Positions 1 through 27,358 of a stretch of 35,306 nucleotides of DNA are shown one piece after another (position 1 is the first letter of the stretch; each line of letters starts with the position of its first letter). Source of the DNA: Segetibacter sp. (GTDB lineage: Bacteria; Bacteroidota; Bacteroidia; Chitinophagales; Chitinophagaceae). Below the pieces are notes generated by a model that was not told where the DNA came from, searched no databases, and saw only the letters and a list, made by a program, of their open reading frames with translations. Location of the stretch: assembly GCA_021154405.1 (NCBI GenBank), contig JAJKIP010000088.1, positions 1 to 35,306 on the forward strand, given 5' to 3'. The translations under genes and the position numbers were made by a program.

Positions 1-747
1 AACTGCCAAAACAGGATATCCTAATAAGATGGCATACCAGGGATAATTGGGATCATTAGCCGGCCGCACCAAATTCCAATAATGACTGGGAGCGCGGTGA
101 AATAATTCTCTTATGCCACCAATCTTATTAATACCAATAACGGTAAGGAGAAAAGAAACCAGGATCAACAGTATCATCTGAAACACATTCACTCTTGCAA
201 TAGCTTTCAATCCACCTGCAAATGCAAATAATCCAGCAAATAATACCAGCACAATAACTGATTGCCACATGGGTATTCCCAATATCTGTCTTACTAAAAA
301 CCCTCCGGCAAACAGTCCAAGCGAGAGCCAGGAGATCAATATCTTGATCAATGCATACCATGCCAGTATATTTCTTGTGGTATCACCATACCTGTTGCCC
401 ATGAACTCAGGCATGGTAGTTACCCTGTTGGCCAGGTAGCGTGGTGCAAATACCATTGCGAGAAGAAACAGGAATACAAATGCATACCATTCAAAATTCC
501 CTGCTACAATCCCCGTGCTATATCCAATACTGGCAAAGGCCAATAACATGGATGGTCCTACATTGGTCCCCCACATATTGAAACCGATGCTGTACCAGTT
601 GAGTGATTTACCTGCGAGGAAAAGGTTCTCATCATTTTTTTTCCTGTTTCCAAAGCTCGCTCTGTAGCCTATATATAATAATATAAGCAGGTACACCCCT
701 ACTATTACATAGTCTACAGTTTGCAGCTTTGAAAGCAGGTTGTTCAT
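1..747 (-). CDS. Sodium:solute symporter (SSS family), 3' end cut by window edge
   Basis: This is the first 249 codons of an inner-membrane sodium/solute symporter; the frame is still open at base 1. The ATG at 747-745 follows the upstream gene's TAG by 15 bases. The product begins MNNLLSKLQTVDYVIVGVYL, so a first membrane helix starts within 20 residues. It continues with IGFNMWGTNVGPSMLLAFAS and FAPRYLANRVTTMPEFMGNR, which match the glucose/galactose-type (SglT-like) branch of the SSS family. The SSS family couples sugar or organic-acid uptake to sodium. Following a dehydrogenase and a series of glycan enzymes, it probably imports a released monosaccharide or its oxidised product. It is clearly a different subfamily from the two symporters at 6749 and 10175. 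The substrate cannot be read from the sequence. Confidence 0.9.
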   Translation of the reverse strand, partial: MNNLLSKLQTVDYVIVGVYLLILLYIGYRASFGNRKKNDENLFLAGKSLNWYSIGFNMWGTNVGPSMLLAFASIGYSTGIVAGNFEWYAFVFLFLLAMVFAPRYLANRVTTMPEFMGNRYGDTTRNILAWYALIKILISWLSLGLFAGGFLVRQILGIPMWQSVIVLVLFAGLFAFAGGLKAIARVNVFQMILLILVSFLLTVIGINKIGGIRELFHRAPSHYWNLVRPANDPNYPWYAILLGYPVLAV

Positions 748-762
748 TTCTTAATTAGTTGA

Positions 763-1827
763 CTATGCCAGTCCGTTTTCCGCGAGCACATCTTTGATCT
801 TCACCGGAACTCCTATCTGCAGACTACGGTCCATTGCCTGTAACAGCGCGATGGTACCAATGCCTTCCTGCAGATCAGGATATGCCGTGAAATTCTGTTC
901 TATTGAATCAGCAAAATATTCCAGATAATTCTGGTATTCACCGGCATGATGACTCTTTCCTTCAAACCGGAAATAATGCTTGAGTTTATGCTCCCAGGTC
1001 AGCATTCTTTCCTCACCTGTCCTGTCGGTAATCGCATAACGAAGGTCCATATAGTCGCCCTGGCTGCAACCTTCCGTTCCACGCAGGATGCAACTCATTT
1101 CGCTATCTCTTGTTACCGGTTGCACAGGTCCGGTATAGCACCCACTTACTCTGGCCACTCTTCCATCTGAAGCTCTGAATATAAAATGCATGGTATCCGG
1201 GTTTTTCAATCCACCTTTTTTACCATTACTACTTAGCATTCCATATCCCATTACTTCCTCAATATTTGGCAAATACCAGCGAATGAAATCTACAGGATGA
1301 CTTAGTCCCCCATACAACCATTTGAATGATGCCTGGAGTGACCAGGGCTTTTCCAAAAACCAGCGATGGTCTGCATGGTAGTATGATTCAATAGAGATCA
1401 GTTCTCCTATCAATCCATCCTCATAATCCTTACGCTGTTTCTTCATGGGTTCAAAAAATCGCGAGCTCTGTCCTACAAATACTTTTTTGCCGGTCCTTTT
1501 TTGCAGTTCAATCAATTCCTTTGCCTTTGACAGATCATCGATAAAGGGCTTGGTACAGACCACGTGTTTATTGTGGAGCAACGCCAGCTTTACATGCTCT
1601 GCATGCAGGTGGTCAGGCGTATAAATGGCAATGATATCGATCTCCTTATCATCCAGCATTTCCTGGTAATCAGTAGTAAAATCATAAACTTTGAATTCAT
1701 CTCCTCTTTTCCTGCACAGCTCAAGACTCAGATCACAGATTGCTTTTAATCGCAGTTTTTCACTTTGGAGAACTGCGGAAATGGTGCTCCTTCCTTCCCC
1801 TAATCCAAGTATGCCAACTGATAACAT
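763..1827 (-). CDS. Gfo/Idh/MocA family oxidoreductase
   Basis: A 354-residue cytoplasmic NAD(P)-dependent sugar or sugar-acid dehydrogenase of the Gfo/Idh/MocA family, of usual length. The N-terminal Rossmann fold starts at once with GILGLGEGR (residues 5-13). The catalytic Lys lies in CTKPF (Lys93, matching the family's EKP motif). The C-terminal domain carries GGLSHPVDFIRWYLP, with His177 and Asp180 in the usual active-site positions. No signal peptide is present. The start is well supported: the ATG at 1827 is preceded by AGGA at a 6-base spacing, overlapping the TAA of the beta-helix gene. Family members oxidise or reduce diverse sugars (inositol, glucose-6-P, galacturonate-type substrates). 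In this locus it probably modifies a pectin-derived sugar before or after the aldolases, but the substrate is unknown. Confidence 0.93.
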   Translation of the reverse strand: MLSVGILGLGEGRSTISAVLQSEKLRLKAICDLSLELCRKRGDEFKVYDFTTDYQEMLDDKEIDIIAIYTPDHLHAEHVKLALLHNKHVVCTKPFIDDLSKAKELIELQKRTGKKVFVGQSSRFFEPMKKQRKDYEDGLIGELISIESYYHADHRWFLEKPWSLQASFKWLYGGLSHPVDFIRWYLPNIEEVMGYGMLSSNGKKGGLKNPDTMHFIFRASDGRVARVSGCYTGPVQPVTRDSEMSCILRGTEGCSQGDYMDLRYAITDRTGEERMLTWEHKLKHYFRFEGKSHHAGEYQNYLEYFADSIEQNFTAYPDLQEGIGTIALLQAMDRSLQIGVPVKIKDVLAENGLA

Positions 1828-1837
1828 ATTTCGTCCT

Positions 1838-4348
1838 TTATTTTAGTTCTTTTAAGAATACCCATACTTCACCGGGCTTTGTACCGGGTATCCCTTCCTG
1901 GTATTTACTCATGATCTTATTCCACTCTGCCACGCGAGGATTATTCTCGGTAGTTTTTGGGTTTAATTTATCCAGTGATTCTCCCTTGGGTATGCTGATC
2001 ACCAGCATAAGTTGTCTGCCATTCCTGTAAACGAGCAATTGCTGGAAATCAGCAGCACAAAACCCCTGGGACACTTCCGGCCATTTAGTGAATTGGGTTT
2101 GATGATAGGCAAGATATTCGTCTATCATTTTTTGATCCTTTACCAGGTTCGCCGTTAACAATATATGATCCCAGTCCTCCGCTTTCTTCTTATTCGTACA
2201 GTGGTCCCTGTTGAATTCATAAAATGGCTCGTTGTATGATCTGACCTGGATTTGCTTAAACTGATTACTTATATCGTTCGTCAAGGCTCCCAAATCGGGC
2301 ACTTTCCCATAAATCACATACCGGTTAAAATATTGATAAAGCCTGACGTCCAGTTTTTTTTGATTGGCAAGAAAAGTTTCCAGGTCTGCGCTATTGATAT
2401 TACTACTTGTTCTGGATATAATTTCAAGCATCACCGGGATTTCATGATTAATTGGCCAACTGGAAGCAACCTGCCTGTCTTTTAAGAGCGCCTGATAGAA
2501 AGAAGTGATACCAGCATTTCTCTTTACATCTAGTGAAACCTGCGGACCATTGTTTTCCCAGGTATTTCCCGGACCATTTGCGTTCTGTAAGAATTTGGAG
2601 GATGGGCACCAGTTATTCCTTACAGTCATATCTGAGCTTCCTTCATCAGTATATAAATAAAACCAGTGACTGGGAATATGTGCATAAGGAGCTTTATAAA
2701 TACTATCAATATAATTTTCACTGATCAGTGTCCCCGGTTGTGCAGATAACGTGTAGATAGCAGCCACATCATAACAATGCTTGCCATAATGGTGAATCCT
2801 GTTGGCAGTGATCTTATTATCCCTCATCACATTAGGCGTCTTTGTCCACCCCCAACCCACACTAATGCCTGTATAGGAAACATCCGATATCTCATTATGG
2901 GTGATGGTAGTTTCTTTTACATACCCTGCCCCTATGCCCACACATCCCCAATCTTCATTCGTCACACCTGTAACAAGGTTATTACTGATCATCAGACCAC
3001 GCGTAATATCCCGCTCATCTTTTGGCTCATAAGGAATATGTACTTCAGTTGATTCATCGGAATAAACACCTGCCAGCAATCCGGTGCCACCTATATCCTT
3101 AAAAAGATTACCATTGATTGTACAATCATAATTTCCCTTCTCTATATCCAGTCCGGTTGAGCCCATGTGCTCAAAAGAGCAGCTTTCAAACTGAAGTGAA
3201 TCCGCATAATTAACTTTCACTGCTGCCGCCGGCCGACCCACCCATGCCTGATTCTCCAATGTCTGCTTATATGGCGTTCCCGGAACCTTCAGTTTATAAG
3301 CATCGGTCATATACATACCGGCCTGAAGGGGAACATGACCATACAAAGAAGGACGTAACCAGCCTGTATGTTCAAAGCTTATCCCTTTGAAGTAAATATT
3401 TGAAACCGGGTGATCAATTGTTCCTTCAATCTTCAATAATGTTTCTAATGCAGGAGCTGTAACTATTGCTTTGGTGAGATCTTCTCCGGGCCTTGGCCAG
3501 TAATATATTTTACGATTACGTACATCCAGCCACCACTCTCCCGGTTCATCCAAAAATTGCATTGCATTGGTTAAATAAAATGCACTGTTACCTGTCTCGG
3601 AAGATATCCATGGAGCCGGCCAGGGATGCTCACTCTGGATCCTGCTTTCTGGCTGCTGAAAGAATAATTTGCTACTGTCTCCATGCACTTCCATTTTCTT
3701 AATGCGAAGTATGGCTACTGCCCACCATTGGTGAATGAACATTTCCATACCCTCAGCATTCTGAAGAGAGAATGTTTTTGGAGTAGGAATCCAGCAGGTT
3801 TCTTCCTTTTTGTTCCAGCTCAATATGCGATACATACTATCTGCATTCCTGTCTCTTGCCCTTTTAGCTTTTATATTGTTGATCCATAATTGACGAAAGG
3901 GAATAAAGTTGCCATTTGCCAGAGGCACATTAGCCACCCAGATCTTTCCTCTGGCATTTTTTGATAAACCGGGAAGCGGGTTGATTAATGGTGACCAGTT
4001 TCCAATAGTAAAGCCACCACTTATTACTGCTTTAGAACCAGGAATGTTTTCTATGTAAGTAGGGCTTGAAGCTGTTCCTGCATCTTCAGGTCGGATAAAA
4101 ACGGGCTCATATAATTTGTAAATACCTTCTGCGAGAATGATATGTACACCACCCACAATGGATGGGTCATTCTGTCTGCGTAGCTCACGCACTTTTCGCA
4201 ATGCACAAGCTAAGGTTGCCAGCGGCTTATCCTGTGTACCAGGATTGGAGTCTGAACCATTGGATGCAACGTAAATATCAACAGCATGACCATGACTGGC
4301 AATTAGCATTAAAAATGCAAATAGGCACAGGGGCAATCGTTTGATCAT
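1838..4348 (-). CDS. Exported parallel beta-helix protein fused to two L-rhamnose-mutarotase-like domains
   Basis: An 836-residue exported protein. A Sec signal peptide (about 1-22, cleaved near HAVD) is followed by IYVASNGSDSNPGTQDKPLA, a typical opening of right-handed parallel beta-helix proteins; helix coils run to about residue 605 (many N-x-I/F and G-x-G repeats). The C-terminus is different. Residues about 736-836 resemble L-rhamnose mutarotase (RhaM/DUF718): EYLAYHQTQFTKWPEV holds the candidate catalytic His749 and the W-P-E motif, and the end reads GEVWVFLKEL. Residues about 654-735 (RLYQYFNRYVIYG and on) look like a degenerate first copy of the same ferredoxin-like fold. RhaM interconverts the anomers of L-rhamnose; the beta-helix may be a glycosidase or lyase of unassigned family. 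The fusion and export suggest release and anomer conversion of rhamnose in the periplasm. The RhaM resemblance is fairly sure; the beta-helix activity is unknown. Confidence 0.85.
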   Translation of the reverse strand: MIKRLPLCLFAFLMLIASHGHAVDIYVASNGSDSNPGTQDKPLATLACALRKVRELRRQNDPSIVGGVHIILAEGIYKLYEPVFIRPEDAGTASSPTYIENIPGSKAVISGGFTIGNWSPLINPLPGLSKNARGKIWVANVPLANGNFIPFRQLWINNIKAKRARDRNADSMYRILSWNKKEETCWIPTPKTFSLQNAEGMEMFIHQWWAVAILRIKKMEVHGDSSKLFFQQPESRIQSEHPWPAPWISSETGNSAFYLTNAMQFLDEPGEWWLDVRNRKIYYWPRPGEDLTKAIVTAPALETLLKIEGTIDHPVSNIYFKGISFEHTGWLRPSLYGHVPLQAGMYMTDAYKLKVPGTPYKQTLENQAWVGRPAAAVKVNYADSLQFESCSFEHMGSTGLDIEKGNYDCTINGNLFKDIGGTGLLAGVYSDESTEVHIPYEPKDERDITRGLMISNNLVTGVTNEDWGCVGIGAGYVKETTITHNEISDVSYTGISVGWGWTKTPNVMRDNKITANRIHHYGKHCYDVAAIYTLSAQPGTLISENYIDSIYKAPYAHIPSHWFYLYTDEGSSDMTVRNNWCPSSKFLQNANGPGNTWENNGPQVSLDVKRNAGITSFYQALLKDRQVASSWPINHEIPVMLEIISRTSSNINSADLETFLANQKKLDVRLYQYFNRYVIYGKVPDLGALTNDISNQFKQIQVRSYNEPFYEFNRDHCTNKKKAEDWDHILLTANLVKDQKMIDEYLAYHQTQFTKWPEVSQGFCAADFQQLLVYRNGRQLMLVISIPKGESLDKLNPKTTENNPRVAEWNKIMSKYQEGIPGTKPGEVWVFLKELK

Positions 4349-4470: not shown

Positions 4471-5334
4471 CTATTGCCCCTGGAATACCTTTTTGAGATA
4501 GGCTGTATTAGCCCCATAATTGCCTTTTACATCAGATGGCTTTCGCGCATCTCGGCTTCTTTCGATCACCAGCCATCCACTCCATTTCATTTTGTCGAGA
4601 GTCGCCCTGACTTTAGGCATATCGATCTGCGGGTCGTTCTCCAGCCAAACACTATCCTTATTGGTCGCATGGATGGCGCATATCCTGTCCTTTCCTAATA
4701 TCTGTAATTCTCTTGTCAGGTCCCGGCCTTCTTTCAATGGATTAGAGAAATTGAAATAGATCTTTATTCCTTTTGAATTGATCTCCTTTAACAATTGCAC
4801 TTCTTCTGTAGCATTAAGCGCTGTTTCAATACCAATCACCACTCCGGCCGCTTCTGCCATTTTACCCGCTACTTTTAACCTTGCTACTACTGAATCTCTG
4901 ACTTCCGGATGCTTTTTAAGATCACACTGCACACCCAAAGGAAGAAAAGCAATTTTAATATTCATCAGCTTCATGGTGGCAATACAGTCTTCAATTGATC
5001 TTTTATACTCAGCACGGCCGCAGAATGATTGAGCATAATAGCCTGTCATGGCTAGTGAGAATAATTCCACCTTCAATTCTTTTGCCTTATCAAGGAATTG
5101 CTTCCGCACGGAATCAGTCAGGAGCTGATTATCAAAGGTAGGCCTGGTTCCAAGTCCTCCCATATCCACCTCCAGTCCATCTGCCCCTATCTGCTGGGTG
5201 AGTGGAATAGCGCCAAGTTTCTGACGCTTCAAAAGCATCAGATCGATCAAACCCACTTTATAACGCTGATTCTGCTGTGCATAAGAACCAATAGCAGAAA
5301 GCAGAAACAGAATGCAAATCAGTTTCTTAATCAT
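4471..5334 (-). CDS. Exported sugar isomerase/epimerase-like TIM barrel (xylose isomerase-like)
   Basis: A 287-residue protein of the xylose-isomerase-like TIM-barrel superfamily (the AP-endonuclease-2/sugar phosphate isomerase group). I chose the ATG at 5334 over an upstream alternative at 5379 because it gives a clean Sec signal peptide (MIKKLICILFLLSAIGSYAQ) and sits one base after the previous gene's stop, implying translational coupling. Likely metal ligands are Glu170 (GIETALN), His222 (IHATN) and Glu258 (VIERSRD). The position usually taken by Asp in this fold appears as Asn195 in YFNFSNPL, so the metal site may be altered. Family members isomerise or epimerise ketoses, normally in the cytoplasm; the signal peptide here suggests a periplasmic role on a free sugar, or a non-isomerase role. 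The substrate is not assignable. Confidence 0.85.
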   Translation of the reverse strand: MIKKLICILFLLSAIGSYAQQNQRYKVGLIDLMLLKRQKLGAIPLTQQIGADGLEVDMGGLGTRPTFDNQLLTDSVRKQFLDKAKELKVELFSLAMTGYYAQSFCGRAEYKRSIEDCIATMKLMNIKIAFLPLGVQCDLKKHPEVRDSVVARLKVAGKMAEAAGVVIGIETALNATEEVQLLKEINSKGIKIYFNFSNPLKEGRDLTRELQILGKDRICAIHATNKDSVWLENDPQIDMPKVRATLDKMKWSGWLVIERSRDARKPSDVKGNYGANTAYLKKVFQGQ

Positions 5335-5335
5335 T

Positions 5336-6736
5336 TTATTTCCCAATTGATTTATAGAATAATGTTTCAAGGTTAGCAAATCCTTTTACTGCATGGGCTG
5401 GCAATAACTCTCCATTCTTGCCGAATACATACAATGCCTGTTCCGGTTCAATAGTGATCTTTGATTCATCAATTTTTCCAGACGCATCCTGTATTGCTTT
5501 GATGTTTAAACCAAGATGCTTTGCCATGAATTCATACACTGCGGCCCTTTTATTGATTCCGAAATCATGACCCTCTTCTTTTAAATGCACATTCTCTACC
5601 TGACTGGCACTTTTATACCATCCATACATTTTCTGAAGGTATAAGAAATCATGTTCTGGCATCCGGTCTGTCCAGTCTTTCCCATCACTAACAATTAATT
5701 GGGGACGCGGTGCTGCCATGGCAGCAATCTCTACATTATCTGTATGTCCACCACAATTATGAACGGGCATTCCGCTTTCGCAGGGACATCCGCCATAGAA
5801 ATAGGAAGAGAGTGATACCACAGGTGCAGATACTTTAATACGGTCATCCAGTGCTGTCATTAACACAGTATGGCTTCCCGCACCTGAGCCTCCTGTCATT
5901 GCCACTCTTGCAGTATCTGCATCCTTCAATGACAATAAATAATCAAGGATACGGATGGAGCCCAGTGCCTGTATGGTCATTGATAAACTGCGTCGATGGT
6001 CAGGTACCTCGAATTGCAAAAGTGATTCTCCCCACGCAAAAAGATCATAACTGAATGCCATTGCGCCCATTTTTGCCAGAGCTGCACAGCGGTATTGACA
6101 ATCGGGGCGATAGCGTTGCTTTTCCCAGTGACCATCAGGATTTAATATCACAGGAATTTTTCCTTTATACTTTGAGGGTTTGTACAAGGAACCATTGATC
6201 CATACCCCTGGCAATATTTCAATGGCAATATTCTCTACCGTATATCCATCAAATTTCCTTTTTGGGGTAATAATTGGTTTGGAGGCGGGCGCGGGAGGTA
6301 ATTTACTTAATTGCAGGGATTCCAGCATACAGGGTTTTAATTCAGCCTTCCTTTTCTTCCATTCTGCCAATGTGGAATATTGTGAAGCGATCTTGTCCAG
6401 ATCAGCCCATCCTTCTGCCACCGGCCAACGGTAATATTCATAATACTGAACACGATATAGTTTATCACCATCCTTTCTCACCTTCATATCCAGGGGCTTC
6501 AGCACATTATCCAGGGTTTGGTCAACATCATTTCTGTATCGCCAGTCGGCATACTTTACAGTTTTCCCTGTTACCATAGAATCAGCATATTTGATAGTTA
6601 CCCCATACCTGGTTTGAATATCACTCAGTACATCCTTCAATGGTTTTGCATACGAATTATCTGAATCCATTTGTGCCGGTAATTGCAGTGATACAATGAG
6701 CACGATTGCAAGGGCTATATGATTTCTTATTTTCAT
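5336..6736 (-). CDS. Exported alpha/beta-hydrolase esterase with N-terminal STN-like domain
   Basis: A 466-residue exported esterase. A signal peptide (MKIRNHIALAIVLIVSLQLP) is followed at about 30-97 by an STN-like module (KPLKDVLSDIQTRYGV, then DVDQTLDNVLKPLDMKV), the small domain usually found at the N-terminus of secretins and TonB-dependent transducers. Residues about 160-415 form an alpha/beta hydrolase resembling bacterial acetyl-xylan-esterase-like enzymes. The nucleophile is probably Ser284 (TGGSGAGSHT), the acid Asp351 or Asp354 (VSDGKDWT) and the base His390 (EEGHDFG). It probably removes acetyl or methyl esters from pectin fragments. A GTG at 6742 lies two codons upstream; I preferred the ATG at 6736, and either gives the same mature protein. 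The STN fusion is unusual for an esterase. Ester specificity is not known. Confidence 0.85.
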   Translation of the reverse strand: MKIRNHIALAIVLIVSLQLPAQMDSDNSYAKPLKDVLSDIQTRYGVTIKYADSMVTGKTVKYADWRYRNDVDQTLDNVLKPLDMKVRKDGDKLYRVQYYEYYRWPVAEGWADLDKIASQYSTLAEWKKRKAELKPCMLESLQLSKLPPAPASKPIITPKRKFDGYTVENIAIEILPGVWINGSLYKPSKYKGKIPVILNPDGHWEKQRYRPDCQYRCAALAKMGAMAFSYDLFAWGESLLQFEVPDHRRSLSMTIQALGSIRILDYLLSLKDADTARVAMTGGSGAGSHTVLMTALDDRIKVSAPVVSLSSYFYGGCPCESGMPVHNCGGHTDNVEIAAMAAPRPQLIVSDGKDWTDRMPEHDFLYLQKMYGWYKSASQVENVHLKEEGHDFGINKRAAVYEFMAKHLGLNIKAIQDASGKIDESKITIEPEQALYVFGKNGELLPAHAVKGFANLETLFYKSIGK

Positions 6737-6748
6737 TTTCACGATATA

Positions 6749-8293
6749 TTATTTAGATGGTTTCAATCCGCTATATAAAAGGTTTCTATCCAATACTGGC
6801 TTGGGAAAGAATAAACTGGCTATATACCCTACCAGTATTACCACCAGGTGACTGTAAACTCCCAGCATCAGCTTATGATGTTTAAAATTATAAGGTCCCA
6901 GATCTAATAACAGTTTCTTTTCTTTTACACCAATAGGTGTTGATGTCAAAAATGCATAGGAGGTAAATAATATACAGGCAATGATGCCAATATTCACTCC
7001 CTGCCTGTTGACCCGGGCACTAAGTATCCCCAATAAGAATATCCCAACGATGCCACCAGAGAAAATCGCATAAATAGTAAAGATCACACCCAATACTCCT
7101 TCGTTTCCTATATATAAATAAAGTGCCCCAATTGCAGCTGCCAGTATGCCGGATATGACCACAATTAATTTTCCGGCAAGCAGGTACTGTTTATCATCCT
7201 TACCCGGATTTATCCTCCGATAATAATCCTCCACCCCAACCGCTGCCATTGAATTGAGGTCTGCGCTTAAACTGCAAATAGCGGCTGAGACTAGCGCTGC
7301 CACAATAAAACCGGTAATTCCTGTGGGCAACTGTGTCATCATGAAATAAGGAAACACCTCTTCCGCTTTAGTTCCTGCAGGCAGAGGATTTTGTTTATAA
7401 AATACAAAAAGAGCGGTGCCGATAAGCATGAACAATACCCAAACAGGAACAGTGAGTGATATACCCAAAAGCGATGCCCTGATAGCGGAGCGATCCGTTT
7501 TCGCAGCCAGATAACGCTGGACTACTGTCTGATCAGTGCCATATTTCTGAATGGCATAAAAGGCCCCATTGATGATCATAACAGGAAGGGTGAGTTGTGA
7601 CAGGTCTGTTCTATAGGGACCAAATCCCGTTCTACCATTGGCAGACGCAATAGAAACTGCCTCGGTTACACCGCCTTTAATCGATAACAATAAGATGCTT
7701 AAACAGATAATTCCACTGGCAAATAGCATGAATCCCTGGAACACATCAAGCCAGATAACGGCTGTTATCCCTCCTTTCAGATTCACTATTACTAATACAA
7801 AACTTACAATCACCAGTATAAGATAATCATTCATACCGGTCAGTTTGCCAATAGCAACCGCTATCAGGAATAGCACGGTACCCATTCCTGCAAACTGCCT
7901 GAGCACAAAAGAGGAGGAACTGTAATACCTCGCGAAAAGACCAAAGCGTTTTTCAAAATACTCATACGTACTTAGGCCGATAACCTTTCTATACAGTGGA
8001 ACAATAAACCATATTGTTCCCATTAAAACCACCGGTACCATTAAGCCCTGTACCAATAGTATCCAGTTACTTGAATAGCCCTGCGCAGGATAGCCCAAAA
8101 AGGTAATACTGCTGATCAGTGTTGACAGCAGTGAAAGGCCCAATGCCCACCAGGGGAAATGTCCTTTTGATAGAAAGAAATTCTCTGTCGATTTCTGGCG
8201 GCCTGAAAACCGGAACCCAAGGTAAAGGGTAGCGCCCAGTACAATGAGAATGATCAGGTAATCCACCAGGTGTAAGTGATTCATTGGCGCCAT
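6749..8293 (-). CDS. Sodium:solute symporter (SSS family)
   Basis: A 514-residue polytopic inner-membrane symporter with about 13-14 hydrophobic helices. It begins MAPMNHLHLVDYLIILIVLG and shows family marks LISSITFLGYPAQGYSSNW, the GGITAVIWLDVFQG motif, and VAALVSAAICSLSADLNSMA near the sodium-binding region. The start at 8293 is 2 bases after the stop of the DapA-family gene; an ATG at 8284 is also possible. A TTG-initiated extension to 8431 would lie inside the upstream gene and adds a non-membranous basic stretch, so I rejected it. It is paralogous to the symporter at 10175, and the two bracket two DapA-family enzymes, an arrangement like NanT-type SSS carriers with N-acetylneuraminate lyase. 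It probably imports an acidic sugar released by the upstream enzymes. Confidence 0.92.
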   Translation of the reverse strand: MAPMNHLHLVDYLIILIVLGATLYLGFRFSGRQKSTENFFLSKGHFPWWALGLSLLSTLISSITFLGYPAQGYSSNWILLVQGLMVPVVLMGTIWFIVPLYRKVIGLSTYEYFEKRFGLFARYYSSSSFVLRQFAGMGTVLFLIAVAIGKLTGMNDYLILVIVSFVLVIVNLKGGITAVIWLDVFQGFMLFASGIICLSILLLSIKGGVTEAVSIASANGRTGFGPYRTDLSQLTLPVMIINGAFYAIQKYGTDQTVVQRYLAAKTDRSAIRASLLGISLTVPVWVLFMLIGTALFVFYKQNPLPAGTKAEEVFPYFMMTQLPTGITGFIVAALVSAAICSLSADLNSMAAVGVEDYYRRINPGKDDKQYLLAGKLIVVISGILAAAIGALYLYIGNEGVLGVIFTIYAIFSGGIVGIFLLGILSARVNRQGVNIGIIACILFTSYAFLTSTPIGVKEKKLLLDLGPYNFKHHKLMLGVYSHLVVILVGYIASLFFPKPVLDRNLLYSGLKPSK

Positions 8294-8295
8294 TG

Positions 8296-9204
8296 TTATT
8301 TCTCTACAAACTCGCTGTCTCTGTATTTCTGCTTTAAGTTTTGTTTTTCTTCTTCCCCCATCCCGGCAAGCGGTGGCATCATGAAAGATTGACACAATTC
8401 TTTTTCTTCCATTAATACTTTTAATGCCCAAAGTGATTCTCCCTGCGTTTTCCCTTCCTGGTATATCTTACCCAACTTATCTGATAATTCCTGTTGCTTA
8501 TAGGCATGATCCCGATCATTCTGTCCTACAGCAATAAACATTTCTGAATAGATATCCGGGGCAATATTTGCAGTGGAAGGGACCAGGCCATCTGACCCCT
8601 TAAATAATGCTTCGGCTGAGCGTGCGCCCCAACCCAGGAAATGACTGAAATCCTTGCGGTCCTTCCACAGCATGATGGATTGCTGCAAACGCTCATCATT
8701 CCGTTCTGAATCTTTTATTCCTACTATATACGGATCATAGCTCAACTCATCAATTAATGAAATGGGAATGCTCATGTGAGTGGTTGCAGGGATATTATAG
8801 ATTATCAGTGGAGCCCTCAGCATTTCCACGAGATCAAGGAAATATTTTTTCATCTGGGATTCCGTTAATGAATAATAGCAGGGCAGGTTCGCCACCAGCA
8901 CATCTGCACCATGATGCATGCAAAACCGTCCAAATTCTACTGATTCTTCAAAACAGTTGCCTGAGATACCGGCATATAATATGGTGTCCTGCATCTTTAA
9001 TTTACCTGCCTTCCTCATGTATTTCTGCTTAAGGTCCAGCGATAAAGAAGCAAACTCGCCCGTGGTTCCCAGTATGAAAGGAGAGATCGAGTGTTCATAG
9101 AACATTCCGAATATCCGTTCCACTGCCGCCTTATCCAGTTTATTACCTTCAGTCAGCGGTGTTACAACTGGTGCAATAATCCCTCTATATTTCTTGTGAG
9201 TCAT
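8296..9204 (-). CDS. DapA/N-acetylneuraminate-lyase family aldolase (first type)
   Basis: A 302-residue cytoplasmic class I aldolase or dehydratase of the DapA superfamily, of typical length. It carries the pyruvate-carboxylate-binding motif GTTGE (residues 46-50), the catalytic Tyr136 in IIYNIPATT, and the Schiff-base Lys164 in VGIKDSE. The ATG at 9204 is preceded by AAGGA at a 7-base spacing, which decides the start against a TTG at 9246 that would overlap the previous gene. DapA relatives include dihydrodipicolinate synthase, N-acetylneuraminate lyase and several 2-keto-3-deoxy-sugar-acid aldolases. Between two symporters in a pectin-type PUL, cleavage of a 2-keto-3-deoxy acid is more likely than lysine synthesis. 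The exact substrate is unknown. Confidence 0.92.
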   Translation of the reverse strand: MTHKKYRGIIAPVVTPLTEGNKLDKAAVERIFGMFYEHSISPFILGTTGEFASLSLDLKQKYMRKAGKLKMQDTILYAGISGNCFEESVEFGRFCMHHGADVLVANLPCYYSLTESQMKKYFLDLVEMLRAPLIIYNIPATTHMSIPISLIDELSYDPYIVGIKDSERNDERLQQSIMLWKDRKDFSHFLGWGARSAEALFKGSDGLVPSTANIAPDIYSEMFIAVGQNDRDHAYKQQELSDKLGKIYQEGKTQGESLWALKVLMEEKELCQSFMMPPLAGMGEEEKQNLKQKYRDSEFVEK

Positions 9205-9224
9205 GATTCTGTCCTTATATGATA

Positions 9225-10178
9225 TTAGCCAACTAATTTCTTGCAATCCACAGGCTCTATTTCCAATCGTTCACACCATCCCAGGAAGCTGTCATATATT
9301 TCATCCAATACCCCTTTTTGCTCCGGAGTCAGCTGCATGATATGCGCCCTGCTGATCATTCTTACAGGTAAACCCCGCTTGGCTAAAAAATATTTTGCAC
9401 TCATCGGATAGGCGATATGGATAAGAGGGTCTACCCTGGTCAGCTCCCTTTGTAACCATTCTACTTCTTTCTTTTTTGAAGGGTCATTGGCGTTATTGCA
9501 CATCCAGACCAGGATCTCAGGATAGAAATTGCCTGAAATAGACGACATACCCCTGGCACCAGCCTGTAAAGAAAATTGTGCATTCGGTGTATGGGCATCA
9601 TAGAATTCCAGTTTATCATTTCCTTTTGCTACTTCCAGCTTTGCTTTTACATTTTCCGGAAGAATAGATGTGTCTTTATGATATACCAGCCGGTCAGCTT
9701 CCAGTAATTGCCTGAATATATCCGCACTCAGGATTCGTTTGTAGGGAGCAGGACATTCGTAAAGCCCTAAAGGAATAGGACCTGTGAGCTCAAACATCTT
9801 ATCGAAATTTCGTAACAACACCTCATCAGTTTCACCTACTCTTGCAAAATGACCAGTGATCAGGATCACGGCATCAATTCCCGTATCATATATCTGTTTG
9901 GTAAATTCTGCCTTGTCTTCCAGCGTCAATCCAAAGGAACCTGTAGCTACTACAGGTACACGTCCATTCACATATTTTACTATATGCCTGGTAAGCTCCA
10001 GCCGTTCATCCTCTGAAATGCTGAACATTTCACTACTCAGGCAGTTAGCAAAGAATCCTTTCACACCAGCTGCAAGGTAAAAATCAACCAGGGTTGATAC
10101 TACATCCAGATCAACTTTTGCCTTCAGGTTGAACGGCGTGATCATGACCGGCACAAATTTTTTATCGCTGTTATTCAT
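9225..10178 (-). CDS. DapA-family aldolase/dehydratase (second, divergent type)
   Basis: A 317-residue cytoplasmic member of the DapA superfamily, clearly different from its neighbour. The Schiff-base Lys168 (VYHKDTS) and active-site Tyr140 (GLYECPAPY) are present. The usual GTTGE loop is replaced by ANCLSSEMFS at about 44-53, so carboxylate binding and substrate choice probably differ. The start ATG at 10178 overlaps the symporter's TGA in an ATGA arrangement and is preceded by AGGAG, so translation is likely coupled. With the next gene it makes two aldolase-like enzymes in a row. They could handle successive steps (dehydration then aldol cleavage) or two different keto-deoxy acids. Function is inferred only to the superfamily level. 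Confidence 0.9.
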   Translation of the reverse strand: MNNSDKKFVPVMITPFNLKAKVDLDVVSTLVDFYLAAGVKGFFANCLSSEMFSISEDERLELTRHIVKYVNGRVPVVATGSFGLTLEDKAEFTKQIYDTGIDAVILITGHFARVGETDEVLLRNFDKMFELTGPIPLGLYECPAPYKRILSADIFRQLLEADRLVYHKDTSILPENVKAKLEVAKGNDKLEFYDAHTPNAQFSLQAGARGMSSISGNFYPEILVWMCNNANDPSKKKEVEWLQRELTRVDPLIHIAYPMSAKYFLAKRGLPVRMISRAHIMQLTPEQKGVLDEIYDSFLGWCERLEIEPVDCKKLVG

Positions 10179-11749
10179 ATTTCTCCTGCTTCTACGTTTT
10201 GAATATTTCTATTTCTGATCCTTGTTATCAATAGGCCTGATAAGAATATTCCGAGGGTTCCTACTACAATGATCATATTCTTATGCAGGGGGCTTCTTAA
10301 AAACTGATAGCTCACGGGTAGCCGGTCGCTGAATGTCATCCATAATATTATTATGATGCCGATCAGTACGGCTGTAAAGGCTTCGGGACTACTTGTACGT
10401 TTACTGATCAATCCTAGCAAAAACAGACCCAACATTCCTCCTGCAAAAATGCCAGACAGTTCCCACCAAACATCCAGCAGGCTCCTGCTTCCGATCATGG
10501 CCAGACCGGTAAATAAACCAATCAGTCCAAAAATGATCGTGAACATTTTCAATACCATGAGTTGTTTCTTATCAGAGATTGAACGATTAACATATCTCTT
10601 ATAAATGTCCATAGTAAACACTGTGGCCGATGAATTCATATTGGAACTGATCGTGCTCATTGCTGCAGATAATATAGCTGAAACAATTAACCCAACCAGG
10701 CCTGTTGGAATTTTTGTAACCATGAAAAATGGCAATACCTTATCTCCATAATCTGCAGGCCTCAATGATTGGGTAAGGCCCATAATCGTATGGGAATTTA
10801 CACTTCCCTGTTCGGCTACTACCTGCATTTTTACAGGCTCTATCATTTCAGGGTTTACCTGGTAAAATGCATACAATGCAGTACCGATAATAAAGAACAG
10901 TAATGAAGCCGGAACATACATCCATACGCATAACCATATTGAACGACTAGCCTGTTTAGAAGATTTGGCGGTATGATATCGCTGGATATAATTCTGGTCC
11001 ATTCCAAAATTGTTCAGGTTAATGAAGAACCCATAGAATAATATCACCCAGAAAGTGGATTCTGTCAGGTCTGGCGATAAACTGCCTAAACTGATCTTAT
11101 GGTCTCTTGTTGCAATATCCCAGATTGCAGACACACCACCTGGCATCTGGCTAATAATGATCCCCAGTATTAATAATGCACCCAGTGTTTTAATAATACC
11201 CTGTACCACTTCCGTCCAAATTACCGCTTCCATACCTCCCATTACAGTGTATATTATAATACATATTCCCATCACGATCATGATGGAGGCCATTGAAAAA
11301 CCAGTAAGCGCCTGCAGGCTTAATGCCATTCCAAAAAAAATAGAGCCCATCCTGGCAAACTGGGTCAGGAGGAAACAGATTACTGCATAAGTCCTTGCCC
11401 AGGGTCCAAATCTTTTTTCCAAATGCGTATAGGCGGATATTTCTCCCGTACTCCTATAGAATGGAACAAAATAACGTGAAGCAATCCAGGCTGCCAGTGG
11501 CATGGAAAGACTGAATACAAATGCATTCCAGTTACCTCCAAACGCTTTTCCCGGTACCCCTAAAAATGTATTGCTGCTTAAAAAGGTAGCGTAAATGGAT
11601 AATCCTATTGCCCAGCCGGGAATCTTTCCGGAAGCGCTGGTGAATTGTTCCGTGTTCTTATTCCGCCTGGAAAAATAAAAGCCGATCATTACCATCGCAG
11701 TGAGGTAAATGAAGATGATGACGATATCCAGGACCGGCAGATTATTCAT
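10175..11749 (-). CDS. Sodium:solute symporter (SSS family, NanT-like arrangement)
   Basis: A 524-residue inner-membrane symporter with about 13 helices. Family marks are FLSSNTFLGVPGKAFGGNW near the N-terminus, GGMEAVIWTEVVQG around residue 170, and GLIVSAILSAAMSTISSNMN around 370, which covers the conserved sodium-binding helix. The ATG at 11749 comes 5 bases after the stop of the GH78 gene. A soluble insert lies at about 300-340. Its stop codon overlaps the start of the DapA-type gene by 4 bases, so transporter and aldolase are made together. It is related to the symporter at 6749 and probably transports a similar acidic sugar. No substrate can be stated from sequence. Confidence 0.92.
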   Translation of the reverse strand: MNNLPVLDIVIIFIYLTAMVMIGFYFSRRNKNTEQFTSASGKIPGWAIGLSIYATFLSSNTFLGVPGKAFGGNWNAFVFSLSMPLAAWIASRYFVPFYRSTGEISAYTHLEKRFGPWARTYAVICFLLTQFARMGSIFFGMALSLQALTGFSMASIMIVMGICIIIYTVMGGMEAVIWTEVVQGIIKTLGALLILGIIISQMPGGVSAIWDIATRDHKISLGSLSPDLTESTFWVILFYGFFINLNNFGMDQNYIQRYHTAKSSKQASRSIWLCVWMYVPASLLFFIIGTALYAFYQVNPEMIEPVKMQVVAEQGSVNSHTIMGLTQSLRPADYGDKVLPFFMVTKIPTGLVGLIVSAILSAAMSTISSNMNSSATVFTMDIYKRYVNRSISDKKQLMVLKMFTIIFGLIGLFTGLAMIGSRSLLDVWWELSGIFAGGMLGLFLLGLISKRTSSPEAFTAVLIGIIIILWMTFSDRLPVSYQFLRSPLHKNMIIVVGTLGIFLSGLLITRIRNRNIQNVEAGEI

Positions 11750-11754
11750 TACTA

Positions 11755-14700
11755 TTAATCATCAGAGGGTTTTAAAGTCCTTGCTGTAATACCTGGCCAT
11801 TGCTCATTCACAATGGGATCTCCTTTCAATTGGGAAGGATCAAGCACAACATGCTTAATTCTTTCCCTTCTCCAGGTATAAACAATATGCACCAGGCCAT
11901 CCTTTGTTTGAATTACAGACGGATAAGAATACTGGCTTACCGGTGAATCTTCCAGGATCACCACTGCATCCCAGTTCTTTCCATCTTTTGAAACAGCCAC
12001 GTTCAAAGGAGTGCGGGCGCCTTTTCCATTGGGAAGAGAGGCTTCTGGCTTCACATGATTATATACCAGTAATTGCCTTCCATCTTTCAGTGTCACAGCA
12101 TCTGTTCCTGAATTATTATTGGGCAAAGAAGAGGCAGTCATGGCACTCCAGGTCTTGCCTCTATCACTGCTCCAGGATTCATTGATGGTTCTGTTCTTAC
12201 TCCTGCAAAGAATCTGCATACGACCATCTGAGTAAGTCAATATGCTGGGCTGAATGGCACTGACTAATTTCCCATCATTCAATGAATCTGTTTTTGACCA
12301 GGTATGACCATTATCCTTAGTTAATTCAAAGTGCACTTTCCAACCGGTTCGCTCTGTACTGCTGGGACACCACAAAGTTCCGTCGATCATTACCGGTTTA
12401 TTTTTTATAGGGCCGAGATATCCTTCCGGCAATGCTTCTCTTTTGCCCCAGGTTTTGCCATTGTCTGTTGACCGGGTCATCCAACCTGTCCATCCAGCCA
12501 CATTAGGCCCAATCTTAAAGAATAATAATAACTCTCCGCCAGGCACCTGGTAGAGAACCGGATTATAACAGGCATATCGTACACTGTCATTCATTACACC
12601 GTCTGCCACCTTAACGGGCACAGTCCATTTATCATTAACAAGTCGGCTGGTCCAGATACATACATCTTTATTTCCTTCCTTTGTTCCCCCAAACCAGGCA
12701 GCTATCAATCCTTCCGGTGTTTCAGCAATTGTAGAAGCATGGCTTTCAGGGAAAGAAGTTCTTTCAAAAATGAATTCATCTTTTATAATTCCTTTCCGGA
12801 ACCGGTCATTAACCTTAAAGTGATAGTCCCCGGAAGGGATCTCAAAGCGGAAATAAAGTCCATCCATTCCGGTATACTTAATTGCATCATTATCCTTTAC
12901 TGGTATATCTCTTTCAGTGATCTCATCCAGGTTCTTTGCTGGTATGTACACAACTGCAGAGGTATTTGCTGGAATGCTGATCCTCCATTCAAAGGATGGA
13001 CCAGTCAGTTTCTTTTCCCAATCGCTACTGATCAATCCATAAGGTGAGTGATAAAAAGCATTTGTCCATTGTAAACCGTCAATGATCTCCGGCTTCATGA
13101 TGATCTTTTTAAATCCGGGCTCAGACCTGTCTGCTTTTATACCTGCTACATTCTCATTCAGCCAGATCAATAGATCACCGAGCAGCATCACATGATTCTG
13201 AGAGTTCATTTGCGGATTGGCAGTATTGCCATTCCAGAGTTCCCAGATAGTAGTGGCGCCATTATTCGCCATGTATCCCCAACTCGGGTACGATGTATTG
13301 GAAGCGAGTGTATAGGCAATATCCGAACGCTGAAAATCGGAAAGACCGCGCATCAGCCATTGAGTACCGATCACACCGGTACTTATATGCATATGATCTG
13401 TTAGCTTAATCCGGTTATATAAATTATTAAATACGGCATCCCTAAGGCTATCAGCCGTTATCCCGAAATAAAGCGGAAGGAGATTAGCAGTTACCGTATT
13501 ATTATCATAAATTTTTTTCTGTGCGTTAAAGAATTTCTGGTTAAAGGCCTGTTTTACTTTTACTTCCTGGTCCTCGTAAACTTTGATATCTCCCGGCTTT
13601 CCTGCCAATGCCGCAAATCGTTTCATATACTGTAATAACCAATAGTAATAAGCGGTGGAGATCAGTTCTCCTTTGGTGGTACGCAGGCTATCTGTTGAAC
13701 GGATAAGTTCCAGTGATTCCGGGGGCACACACCAGTCTCCATATTTGTCTTTTGTCAGGATATTGTTCTTCATGTATTTCGTCCGCATATATTCGATCCA
13801 TTTCTTCATGGAGGGATAATGAGCAATGATCGGCTGCTTATCACCATACTGCCTGTATAACATATCTGCGATCAGGATATAAGTGCCCGGCCAGGTCATA
13901 TTATCACTGTAATAATTCCAGAAGGCAGGTGCAACATCAGGAATAGCTCCTTCTGCCGTTTGCGATTGCTCTATATCGTTCAGCCATTTTGCATATAAAT
14001 TGCCGTTGTTAAAGAGGAAGGCTTCTCCACCCGCGCCCGTTGAACGATCTCCCAGCCAGGGCTGCCGTTCATTGCGTTGAGGACAATCGATGGGCATGCC
14101 TTTATAGTTAGAAGCAATTCCCCACCAGGCATTCCGGTATATTTTATTAATGGTATTATCAGAACAGGAAAAGCGTCCGGACCTTTCCATATCGTCATAT
14201 ACAAAATGACCTTCAAAATCCTGCAATTGAGGCGTCCGTGGGTATCCTGTGATCTCCACAAAGCGAAATCCGTGCGTTACAAACGTTGGCTGCCAGCTTT
14301 CCCTGCCTTCACCTTTTAGTGTATAGATATCTGTAGCCCTTGCATCCCGAAGATTGGCAACATATAATTGTCCATCAGGCTGCAGGCTTTCAGCAAATCG
14401 CAATTTTACCCTGTCTCCCTTCTTTCCTTCTACATTCATTTTCACCCAGCCGGAGAAATTCTGTCCAAGGTCAAGAACGTATTTTCCTTTCTCAACCTCT
14501 TTTAATGAAACAGGTTTAATGGTATCCATGATCTTCATGGGTGGGATCATCTGGGCAGCAAGGATGCCAGGAGGCGCTTTCACCAGTTGTGGACGCATCC
14601 ATTTACTGTCATCATATTTTACAGAAGTCCAGTTACCCAGCTCCTTTGTTGCATCATACTCTTCCCCATCATATTCATTATTAGTACGGATAGGACCATC

Positions 14701-15558
14701 GGCAGTTAATTTCCAGGATTCATCACTCGTTACCTGTTTCTTTGTTCCATTCGCATATTCAATCTCCAATTGTAACAGCAACCTGGGATAACCAAAGCTG
14801 TTAATCTTTTGTGGCTTGTAACCCTGCCGCATGGTGAAGTATCTTCCATTACCGAGAACCGTTGCAATTGCATTCGCTCCATTAATGATATTAGTGGTTA
14901 CATCATACGTATTATATAATACCGATTTCCGGTAATCAGTGGGTGCAGGTCCCAGGCCAGAGCCTGAGACCTTTTTGCCATTGATAAACAATTCATAGAG
15001 TCCGAGACCAACTATATATACGGTTGCTCGTTTGACCTGTCCCGGAGATTGAAACTCCTTCCGCAGGTAACGGGCAGATAATCTGGACCATTGGGTGATA
15101 CTATCCCAGGGAGCCGCTTTATCATAACCGATCCATTTAGCCTTCCAATCAGTTTTATTCAGCAATCCCATACTCCAGGAAGCAGGCTGACTCCAGGCGG
15201 TTTCTCCTTTAGTGGTATACACTTTTACTTTCCAGAAATATCTGCCTTTAGTTGTTAGTGATTTGCCTGCATAGGAAACCATTATGGAAGAAGATGAGAT
15301 GATCTTTCCCGGGTTCCATATATCTCCTTCATTTTTATCCAGTAATTCTTTTGAAGAGGCTACAAGGATATGATAGGCAGTTTGCTTTGTGTCATTTACC
15401 CTCGATATAATTTGCCAGCTTAACCTGGGCGATTTCGCATCGATTCCCAATGGATTCTCCAATTGTTCACATCTCAGATGGGTTACAAATACGGACTGCG
15501 CCTGCAGCCAATGCGACACCAAAAAAGAGAAAATAGTTAATATGAAAAGTCGTTTCAT
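11755..15558 (-). CDS. GH78 alpha-L-rhamnosidase fused to a C-terminal BNR/sialidase-like propeller
   Basis: A 1267-residue exported fusion enzyme with a signal peptide (MKRLFILTIFSFLVSHWLQA). Residues about 23-915 are a full GH78 alpha-L-rhamnosidase: N-terminal Ig-like domain (LRCEQLENPLGID), beta-sandwiches, and an (alpha/alpha)6 barrel. The substrate motif DCPQRNERQPWLGD is complete, with Asp491, general acid Glu497, Trp501 and Asp504; the general base is Glu773 in TTIWELWNG. Residues about 923-1260 form a second enzyme-like unit resembling the BNR_2 sialidase-like propeller: ESHASTIAETPEGLIAAWFG, then Asp-box-like repeats STDNGKTW, TKDNGHTW, SSDRGKTW. GH78 removes terminal alpha-L-rhamnose. 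The propeller's activity is not known; true sialidase is doubtful because no FRIP-like motif is seen. The fusion suggests two neighbouring linkages are cut in sequence. Confidence 0.92.
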   Translation of the reverse strand: MKRLFILTIFSFLVSHWLQAQSVFVTHLRCEQLENPLGIDAKSPRLSWQIISRVNDTKQTAYHILVASSKELLDKNEGDIWNPGKIISSSSIMVSYAGKSLTTKGRYFWKVKVYTTKGETAWSQPASWSMGLLNKTDWKAKWIGYDKAAPWDSITQWSRLSARYLRKEFQSPGQVKRATVYIVGLGLYELFINGKKVSGSGLGPAPTDYRKSVLYNTYDVTTNIINGANAIATVLGNGRYFTMRQGYKPQKINSFGYPRLLLQLEIEYANGTKKQVTSDESWKLTADGPIRTNNEYDGEEYDATKELGNWTSVKYDDSKWMRPQLVKAPPGILAAQMIPPMKIMDTIKPVSLKEVEKGKYVLDLGQNFSGWVKMNVEGKKGDRVKLRFAESLQPDGQLYVANLRDARATDIYTLKGEGRESWQPTFVTHGFRFVEITGYPRTPQLQDFEGHFVYDDMERSGRFSCSDNTINKIYRNAWWGIASNYKGMPIDCPQRNERQPWLGDRSTGAGGEAFLFNNGNLYAKWLNDIEQSQTAEGAIPDVAPAFWNYYSDNMTWPGTYILIADMLYRQYGDKQPIIAHYPSMKKWIEYMRTKYMKNNILTKDKYGDWCVPPESLELIRSTDSLRTTKGELISTAYYYWLLQYMKRFAALAGKPGDIKVYEDQEVKVKQAFNQKFFNAQKKIYDNNTVTANLLPLYFGITADSLRDAVFNNLYNRIKLTDHMHISTGVIGTQWLMRGLSDFQRSDIAYTLASNTSYPSWGYMANNGATTIWELWNGNTANPQMNSQNHVMLLGDLLIWLNENVAGIKADRSEPGFKKIIMKPEIIDGLQWTNAFYHSPYGLISSDWEKKLTGPSFEWRISIPANTSAVVYIPAKNLDEITERDIPVKDNDAIKYTGMDGLYFRFEIPSGDYHFKVNDRFRKGIIKDEFIFERTSFPESHASTIAETPEGLIAAWFGGTKEGNKDVCIWTSRLVNDKWTVPVKVADGVMNDSVRYACYNPVLYQVPGGELLLFFKIGPNVAGWTGWMTRSTDNGKTWGKREALPEGYLGPIKNKPVMIDGTLWCPSSTERTGWKVHFELTKDNGHTWSKTDSLNDGKLVSAIQPSILTYSDGRMQILCRSKNRTINESWSSDRGKTWSAMTASSLPNNNSGTDAVTLKDGRQLLVYNHVKPEASLPNGKGARTPLNVAVSKDGKNWDAVVILEDSPVSQYSYPSVIQTKDGLVHIVYTWRRERIKHVVLDPSQLKGDPIVNEQWPGITARTLKPSDD

Positions 15559-18381: not shown

Positions 18382-19917
18382 TTAAAGGCTTGCCTCAATT
18401 TTACATAACACTTCTGCCCTTTTCAATAATTTTCCATTGGCGTATACACTTAGGCCTTTTCCTTTTTTATACTTCTGACCGCTCTTATCCCAGATAATAG
18501 TAATGATCTTACCATGATACAATACGTTATCCAGGCAAAACCAGTCCCATTTATTGGAAGGCAGCAGAGGATTTACTTCAATGATATTATCTGCTCTTGG
18601 CCGTAAACCAACCAGCCCCGTGATCAAAAGGTCATTAAAGGTTGAATGATTGTAATACCGGCTTCTTTCCTGGTCACCCTTTAGCCAGTAACCTGTTTTC
18701 TCATCCAGGTACTCACCTACATAAGGTTTGCCACGATAATACTGTGATTCCACATAGGTTTCCAGCAGATCAAAATAAAGGCTGTCTGTTACAGTCTTTT
18801 GCTGGTGATTATTCATCAGGTTGGCCATTGCCGTCAATGTTTGTGAAGTGGCAAATGGCCAAACAGCTCCATCCCATTCACAATTGCAGCAGCCATGCAT
18901 GCGAAATTGCGGATGGCTCCTGTCTGCCGTAGTTATTCCAAATGGCGCACAGAATTGTTTGGTATCTGCAAGGCTGGTCCAGGCCACATCATACTGCGCA
19001 TCAGGCATATTGAAGTACCAGGGAATAAAGCCTATTTCTTCTTTTACATTGGCGCTTGTATCTGCTTCCTTCAATACTTCAAAAAAGCGATGGTTATTAT
19101 TCCAGAGTTTCGCTTGTGTAAGCTGCTTGATACTATCAGCTTTCCTGTTATACAGGGCAGCAGTTTCTGGCTGATGAGCCAGGCTGGCGATAGATGCAAT
19201 TGCTTTTGCATTACCATACATATATCCATTGATGGAAGGTCTTGCATTCTTCTCCCGTCTTCCGCCACTGATCGTTTCTTCCATTGCATCCCTAACATCA
19301 TATTGCCAGAATAATCCGCCCGGCAATTTCTTATCATGCTCCCAGGCAGTATAGTCCGCTTCCAGATCTGGCAACAGGTTTACAACAAATGCAGCGTTGT
19401 TGTTGACAAGGTACCGGTTATAAATAGCATCGCTAGCCCAGCTACTGTACGCGCGCAATTTACTCATGGGCCTTCCCTCATTGCCACGGAACCATACCAT
19501 AATATTGTTGTCAAGGTAACGCTGGTCGTGCAACCACCTGCCTTCGTAAATATGATGTCCCAGGGCACTGCTGATCATATTGTATTTATCAGCATAATTC
19601 CGCTGGATAAGGAACTCTGTAAAAACAAAGCCTTTCTCAGTTTTCTTTATATGCTTACGAATGGTCCACCAGCGATAATAAAATATCTCCTCAAAATTCT
19701 GTTGAGGACATTCAAACAGGGGAATATTCTTTTGCATCCACTGCCATGCACTGTCGTTTGGAATGGCCTGCTTTATATTCTCATCCTCCATCCTGTTGAA
19801 GTAATCGACATAATGCTTAAATGATGCGGCTTTTAATACAAGTGGTTTGCTAATCTGGCTAAATCCCTGGCTTACCAGGCAGATACCAGTCAGTAATATG
19901 ATTAACCGCTTCTTCAT
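18382..19917 (-). CDS. Exported six-hairpin (alpha/alpha)6 glycosidase-like protein
   Basis: A 511-residue exported protein (signal MKKRLIILLTGICLVSQGFS) that folds as an (alpha/alpha)6-barrel glycosidase, closest in look to the MGH1-like/GH63-like group. Marks include MVWFRGNEGRPMSKLRAYSSW, GLFWQYDVRDAMEETISGG (candidate acidic residues), NGYMYGNAKA, and CCNCEWDGAVWPFATSQTL, an aromatic-rich barrel segment with a Cys cluster. A C-terminal beta-sandwich follows (EVNPLLP onward). I cannot assign a CAZy family with certainty. Its ATG overlaps the preceding gene's TGA by 4 bases (ATGA), so it is probably co-translated with the propeller protein. It likely trims a side-chain sugar after the propeller enzyme has acted. 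Confidence 0.85.
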   Translation of the reverse strand: MKKRLIILLTGICLVSQGFSQISKPLVLKAASFKHYVDYFNRMEDENIKQAIPNDSAWQWMQKNIPLFECPQQNFEEIFYYRWWTIRKHIKKTEKGFVFTEFLIQRNYADKYNMISSALGHHIYEGRWLHDQRYLDNNIMVWFRGNEGRPMSKLRAYSSWASDAIYNRYLVNNNAAFVVNLLPDLEADYTAWEHDKKLPGGLFWQYDVRDAMEETISGGRREKNARPSINGYMYGNAKAIASIASLAHQPETAALYNRKADSIKQLTQAKLWNNNHRFFEVLKEADTSANVKEEIGFIPWYFNMPDAQYDVAWTSLADTKQFCAPFGITTADRSHPQFRMHGCCNCEWDGAVWPFATSQTLTAMANLMNNHQQKTVTDSLYFDLLETYVESQYYRGKPYVGEYLDEKTGYWLKGDQERSRYYNHSTFNDLLITGLVGLRPRADNIIEVNPLLPSNKWDWFCLDNVLYHGKIITIIWDKSGQKYKKGKGLSVYANGKLLKRAEVLCKIEASL

Positions 19918-27320: not shown

Positions 27321-27358
27321 TAACTCCCGCAACCTTAAAACTTAAGCACAATTATGTA

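Follow-up and report, generated by a model that had tools for sequence, protein, structure and literature searches.

Mutarotases are usually viewed as small cytoplasmic helpers. RhaM itself works as a dimeric alpha/beta barrel, and the fold of NanM is a beta-propeller. In the non-phosphorylating pathway, L-fucose mutarotation is carried out by FucM (PMC11199699), and NanM of E. coli is a periplasmic sialic acid mutarotase, which serves the beta-anomer-selective NanT (PMC8141875). Among the enzymes that act on rhamnogalacturonan II (RG-II), BT_1002 of B. thetaiotaomicron cuts the polysaccharide and yields 2-O-methyl-D-xylosyl-alpha-1,3-L-fucose as its product (PMC10154630). Its residues D523 and D564 are essential (PMC10154630, PMC12786026).

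Here we describe a protein encoded in a stretch of 35,306 nucleotides from Segetibacter sp., which we call the window. We read the protein as an exported two-enzyme fusion of a GH141 hydrolase and a FucM-type, mutarotase-like module, whose activity is predicted. For this explanation as a whole we have modest confidence, on the favourable side.

The GH141 protein and its surroundings

The window is an RG-II-type PUL. It encodes a GH140 enzyme related to 5msy/3kzs (E 5e-129) and a BT1020-like enzyme (E 3e-220), together with GH78, GH2, GH43 and SusC/D proteins. Of the 1108 residues of BT1020 (5mqr), only the N-terminal half, residues 24-611, is covered by the alignment with the product of 19914-21746, and the next gene (21743-22684) encodes a separate GH43-like protein. 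The GH78 alpha-L-rhamnosidase at 11755-15558 carries a C-terminal BNR/sialidase-like domain (PF13088, E 1.6e-90), and a 1067-residue protein with DUF6298 (PF19815, E 2.7e-243) is encoded at 24129-27332. Two consecutive genes for DHDPS-family aldolases, with SSS symporters on the flanks, occupy 6749-11749. These aldolases probably act on 3-deoxy sugar acids, e.g. Kdo or Dha of RG-II.

The protein of interest is encoded by a single uninterrupted frame on the minus strand (4348..1838) and is 836 aa long. The signal peptide named in the original prediction was seen again by eye in the translation, as a signal-like N-terminal segment ending in ...ASHGHA. NCBIfam offered no useful name either for the whole protein or for its C-terminal module. 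The features of the protein and of its two downstream neighbours are listed in Table 1.

Table 1. Positions of the protein features and of the neighbouring genes in the window
Feature	Positions	Strand	Basis
Signal peptide, residues 1-22 (MIKRLPLCLFAFLMLIASHGHA)	4283..4348	-	by eye from the translation
GH141 catalytic parallel beta-helix, residues 23-621, BT_1002-type	2486..4282	-	phmmer against PDB 5mqp
GH141 insertion domain (PF21231), residues 134-286	3491..3949	-	PF21231, E 5.5e-70
Asp527, equivalent of BT_1002 Asp523 (catalytic)	2768..2770	-	5mqp alignment; Asp in 70/70 homologues
Asp568, equivalent of BT_1002 Asp564 (catalytic)	2645..2647	-	5mqp alignment; Asp in 70/70 homologues
Ferredoxin-like domain 1, residues 638-717, without RhaM signature	2198..2437	-	AlphaFold2 models and fold search
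RhaM/FucM-family domain 2, residues 723-836, mutarotase-like	1841..2182	-	PF05336; 7byu and 1x8d folds; FucM profile scores
His749, putative catalytic residue, matching in alignment the invariant His of FucM and RhaM	2102..2104	-	81/81 sequences
W756-P757-E758 motif	2075..2083	-	residue counts over 81 sequences; FucM and RhaM alignments
Gfo/Idh/MocA oxidoreductase without signal peptide	763..1827	-	PF01408
SSS-family sodium/solute symporter SSF1, truncated at the window edge	1..747	-	PF00474

The long parallel beta-helix, which had been proposed from the translation, is present (PF13229, right-handed beta-helix), and residues 22-621 matched PDB 5mqp, i.e. BT_1002, with an E-value of 1.2e-205 in phmmer. 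The helix had been suspected to represent an unassigned glycosidase or lyase family, which is ruled out by this match together with the PF21231 hit. The equivalence of the two Asp residues was read from the 5mqp alignment, in which the PDB chain numbering is offset by 5 residues. Because of the 5mqp and PF21231 matches and the conservation of the Asp pair, the beta-helix is, by its sequence, an ordinary and intact GH141 domain, orthologous to BT_1002 and with both catalytic Asp residues kept. Across 72 GH141 segments from related loci the mean identity to our query was ~61 %. We predict that the domain acts as an alpha-L-fucosidase-type enzyme on chain A of RG-II.

The C-terminal module

Residues 636-836, aligned with 77 homologues, were modelled by AlphaFold2. 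The model consists of two consecutive ferredoxin-like units, with a mean pLDDT of 93.6 and a pTM of 0.89. The profile of the module found no PDB chain by sequence. The second unit, domain 2, matched PF05336 (rhaM) with an E-value of 2e-11 for the whole protein, and the match at residues 737-834 scored 44.5 bits where the curated cut-off is 23.4. A chance match is excluded, because all 78 members of the module alignment match PF05336 and His749 is invariant. The fold comparison agreed with this assignment: the second unit superposed on the L-fucose mutarotase 7byu with Z 9.9 over 103 residues (rmsd 2.5 A), on E. coli RhaM 1x8d with Z 8.1 over 95 residues (rmsd 2.4 A), and on RhaU 2qlw and Formosa RhaM 6hhn (Z 7.5 each). 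The RhaM fold, the family match, the conserved His749 and the W-P-E motif of the original prediction are thus all borne out for this domain. The motif residues W756, P757 and E758 were found in 78, 79 and 77 of the 81 sequences, respectively. The Tyr/His/Trp/Glu/Trp set that is invariant across FucM and RhaM corresponds to Y745, H749, W756, E758 and W809, each kept in 77-81 of the 81 sequences.

Within the family, domain 2 groups away from the RhaM proteins of rhamnose operons. When its profile was compared with proteins of related genomes, FucM-type ones scored 46-63 bits and RhaM ones below 10 bits, and by this sequence comparison the domain is nearer to FucM. The FucM-type relatives adjoin FucP-like, altronate-dehydratase-like, amidohydrolase, FAH and SDR genes. 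Elsewhere in the genome from which the window comes there is a single further PF05336 gene, which belongs to a rhamnose operon and encodes a classical cytoplasmic RhaM.

Relative to both FucM and RhaM, three additional residues are inserted in domain 2 after His749 and before the W-P-E motif, and the domain contains an invariant stretch, LNPKTTENNPRV, which is particular to the exported module. The pocket is therefore probably altered compared with FucM, and the substrate or the chemistry may differ as well. Moreover, C717 and C764 are invariant in all 81 sequences and could form a disulfide bond, which would fit an exported protein.

Regarding domain 1, the situation is different. The original prediction described the C-terminal half as RhaM twice, with the first copy degenerate. 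The second domain is of the RhaM family and both domains are of the ferredoxin-like fold class, domain 1 having the beta-alpha-beta-beta-alpha-beta topology, but a sequence relationship of domain 1 with RhaM or FucM found no support (hhalign probability 5-9 %). When folded alone it matched generic ferredoxin-like folds only, and RhaM was absent among the listed fold matches. Two RhaM copies are thus unsupported by the profile comparison and by the folding of domain 1 alone. Residues 638-717 may still be a very diverged copy of the RhaM-family domain. The whole module aligned end to end with tandem ferredoxin-like proteins (Z 8-11), as one would expect of a dimeric alpha/beta barrel built from one chain. 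Since domain 1 varies freely (mean pairwise identity 34 %) and domain 2 is held at 72 %, above the value for the GH141 part, the comparison suggests a single active site in domain 2, with domain 1 as its probable structural partner.

Distribution of the module and its conserved neighbours

We scanned one genome per species and kept the best 80 module loci in other genomes, nearly all of which belong to Bacteroidota. The module forms the C-terminus of a GH141 protein in 60 of them, and the partner is GH141 in every one of these fusions and never GH78. In the other 20 loci the module is a separate protein of ~230-280 residues, with a signal or lipoprotein-like N-terminus as judged by eye. A GH141 gene lies immediately upstream of the separate module in 9 of the 20, and a BT_1002-type GH141 occurs somewhere in 9 of the 10 genomes with a separate module that we examined. 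When the phylum was sampled evenly (296 genomes), the module was found in 12 genomes and BT_1002-type GH141 in 14, and all 12 were among the 14 (Fisher p 1e-19, a value that ignores relatedness). In the order of the L058 genome, 3 of 247 sampled genomes carry the module.

Fused and separate forms are interleaved on the tree and imply at least 6 changes, many of the branches being weak. A one-off fusion or an assembly artefact is ruled out by the 80 loci elsewhere and by this interleaving. The arrangement is thus common in Bacteroidota, as these best 80 loci show, and the fusion architecture is spread through soil and marine members of the phylum. Two loci deserve a comment. In L009 (Niabella defluvii), one of the 60 fused loci, the GH141 part is split over several frames while the module is open, owing to sequencing errors or to a decaying hydrolase. 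L022 is titled Williamsia (Actinomycetota) and carries a Chitinophagaceae-type locus on the tree, so it is probably a mislabelled or contaminated bin. No description of a mutarotase-GH fusion was found in the open-access literature, subscription journals not being covered. The protein is thus a widespread variant of known parts, undescribed in the open-access papers searched.

The two neighbours of the gene are also conserved. A Gfo/Idh homologue (68-83 % identity) lies within 5 kb in 70 of the 80 loci and an SSF1-like symporter in 71. Two of the sampled genomes, G219 and G291, are the ones with BT_1002-type GH141 but no module, and they lack both the Gfo/Idh gene and the symporter, and in all 8 module genomes tested both are present, next to the module. 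From this pattern it follows that the module tracks the symporter and the oxidoreductase more closely than it tracks the GH141 hydrolase. The original prediction had considered an isomerase as a possible downstream partner, a role not reflected in the steady partners, which are the SSS symporter and the Gfo/Idh oxidoreductase. The nearest solved relatives of the latter include the sugar oxidoreductase DgpA. Its identity as a D-apiose dehydrogenase was also considered, but no NCBIfam model reached its cut-off. A gene for an AP_endonuc_2-type TIM-barrel protein, sugar isomerase/epimerase-like and with a signal-peptide-like N-terminus, closely precedes the GH141 gene in the window (4471-5379), and this position is conserved in many loci.

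Some lineages differ in their gene content. In Dysgonomonadaceae and in L047/L049 the module occurs without a close Gfo/Idh homologue in the locus. In Dysgonomonadaceae the separate module is accompanied by a GH31 alpha-xylosidase-like enzyme lacking a signal peptide, and the loci also encode a second uncharacterised protein, Fe-ADH, PdxA, a DUF1537-type kinase and a related symporter. An MtaB-type (cobalamin-type) methyltransferase gene occurs with the module in L038 and L066. With this set of genes, the loci L038, L054, L066 and L067 of the family may encode an anaerobic pathway that handles methylated RG-II sugars. In both L041 and L063, the gene for the GH141-module fusion has the GH31 gene directly after it, the symporter is two genes further on, and the Gfo/Idh gene is upstream. 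A cytoplasmic alpha-xylosidase and methyl transfer are what a cell importing 2-O-methyl-D-xylose-alpha-1,3-L-fucose whole would need.

Possible role of the module and comparison with known systems

We propose, as the reading that we moderately favour, a relay in which release by GH141 is followed by mutarotation by the exported FucM-type module and by uptake through the symporter. The GH141 domain would release an L-fucose-terminated product from RG-II side chains, as BT_1002 does. The module, as a single-chain pseudo-dimer with a FucM-type site in its second domain (Tyr745, His749, Trp756, Glu758 and Trp809), would convert the alpha and beta anomers of the free reducing-end L-fucose into each other, whether this is the monosaccharide or part of the disaccharide. 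The SSS symporter encoded nearby would then import whichever anomer it accepts, and the conserved Gfo/Idh enzyme would process the sugar in the cytoplasm, a task that would fall to the GH31 alpha-xylosidase in other lineages. In short, the module probably brings the freed sugar into whichever form the neighbouring transporter accepts. The reading builds on the domain identities, the residue conservation, the export-type N-termini, the pattern of fused and separate forms and the linkage to the symporter and Gfo/Idh genes; the mutarotase activity, the fucose-type substrate and the anomer selectivity of the symporter are what we infer from them. Taken generally, as an exported glycosidase joined to a mutarotase-family domain so that a deoxysugar is freed and its anomer changed ahead of transport, the original idea is plausible in view of the domain identities and the conserved His. 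Mutarotation would not be required for the cleavage itself, because GH141 works without the module in G219 and G291 and BT_1002 is stand-alone. Against fucose counts the presence of other reducing sugars in RG-II, namely L-rhamnose, apiose and galacturonate.

A more specific version, which we put forward only tentatively and think rather doubtful in its entirety, is a dedicated uptake of the methylated RG-II disaccharide. Here the exported FucM-type mutarotase, fused to or beside GH141, would set the anomer of the reducing-end fucose of 2-O-Me-Xyl-alpha-1,3-L-Fuc and the SSS symporter would import the disaccharide intact. It would be opened in the cytoplasm by the GH31 alpha-xylosidase and cobalamin-dependent demethylation in anaerobes, or by an oxidative route led by Gfo/Idh in aerobes.

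The module might instead be a non-catalytic sugar-binding or docking domain on a mutarotase scaffold, holding the product or substrate of GH141 near the enzyme or the transporter. The altered loop beside the active-site His and the other domain, devoid of any signature, would suit such a role. We regard it as unlikely, however, as almost all of the 81 sequences retain the Tyr, His, Trp, Glu and Trp invariant in FucM and RhaM, conservation is higher in domain 2 than in the GH141 enzyme, and a separate lipoprotein-like form exists, which an enzyme-tethered binding module would not need. A different reaction of the same scaffold on the released sugar, e.g. on a sugar oxidised to a keto or lactone form and connected with the Gfo/Idh enzyme, would account for the tight linkage to this oxidoreductase, with DgpA among its solved relatives, and for the distinctive invariant motif NPKTTENNPRV and the insertion. 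But the Gfo/Idh protein lacks a signal peptide and so acts across the membrane from the module, and the module does without a close homologue of it in Dysgonomonadaceae and L047/L049, which makes this explanation quite unlikely.

The sugar of the original prediction was rhamnose or a rhamnose-linked sugar. In a rhamnose reading, the module would be an exported L-rhamnose mutarotase for rhamnose freed by neighbouring GH78 enzymes. The Pfam family is indeed named rhaM, GH78 rhamnosidases are present in the window, and GH78-like proteins occur near many module loci. Nevertheless, the domain is FucM-like by its profile scores, the same genome already has a separate cytoplasmic RhaM in its rhamnose operon, and the partner in the 60 fused loci is an RG-II alpha-L-fucosidase-type GH141. 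We therefore consider this proposal improbable, and an L-fucose-type substrate seems to fit the module better.

If the relay is true, a conserved exported mutarotase joined to a polysaccharide-cutting enzyme would make extracytoplasmic anomer control a part of glycan uptake in many Bacteroidota. This is a clear and testable claim, concerning a domain which is currently hidden beneath the label 'L-rhamnose mutarotase'.

The closest described counterpart of the N-terminal part, BT_1002 (5mqp) from the RG-II PUL of B. thetaiotaomicron, shares with our protein the beta-helix with its insertion domain, both catalytic Asp residues and the RG-II-type neighbourhood, but its chain stops at residue 624 and lacks the mutarotase module. 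For domain 2, FucM of Acidovorax avenae (7byu/7byw) has the same fold and the same Tyr/His/Trp/Glu/Trp set, and FucM-type proteins are the nearest sequence relatives. FucM is, however, a free-standing cytoplasmic protein of ~110 aa, whereas the domain described here is exported, is joined within one polypeptide to a diverged ferredoxin-like domain, and carries the 3-residue insertion beside the His. RhaM and RhaU (1x8d, 2qlw, 6hhn; PF05336) share the family, the fold and the catalytic-type His, but they are cytoplasmic, their sequence similarity to the module is weak, and this genome has its own RhaM elsewhere. In its proposed working principle, an exported mutarotase feeding an anomer-selective transporter, the system would resemble NanM (PMC8141875), which acts on another sugar and belongs to another protein family.
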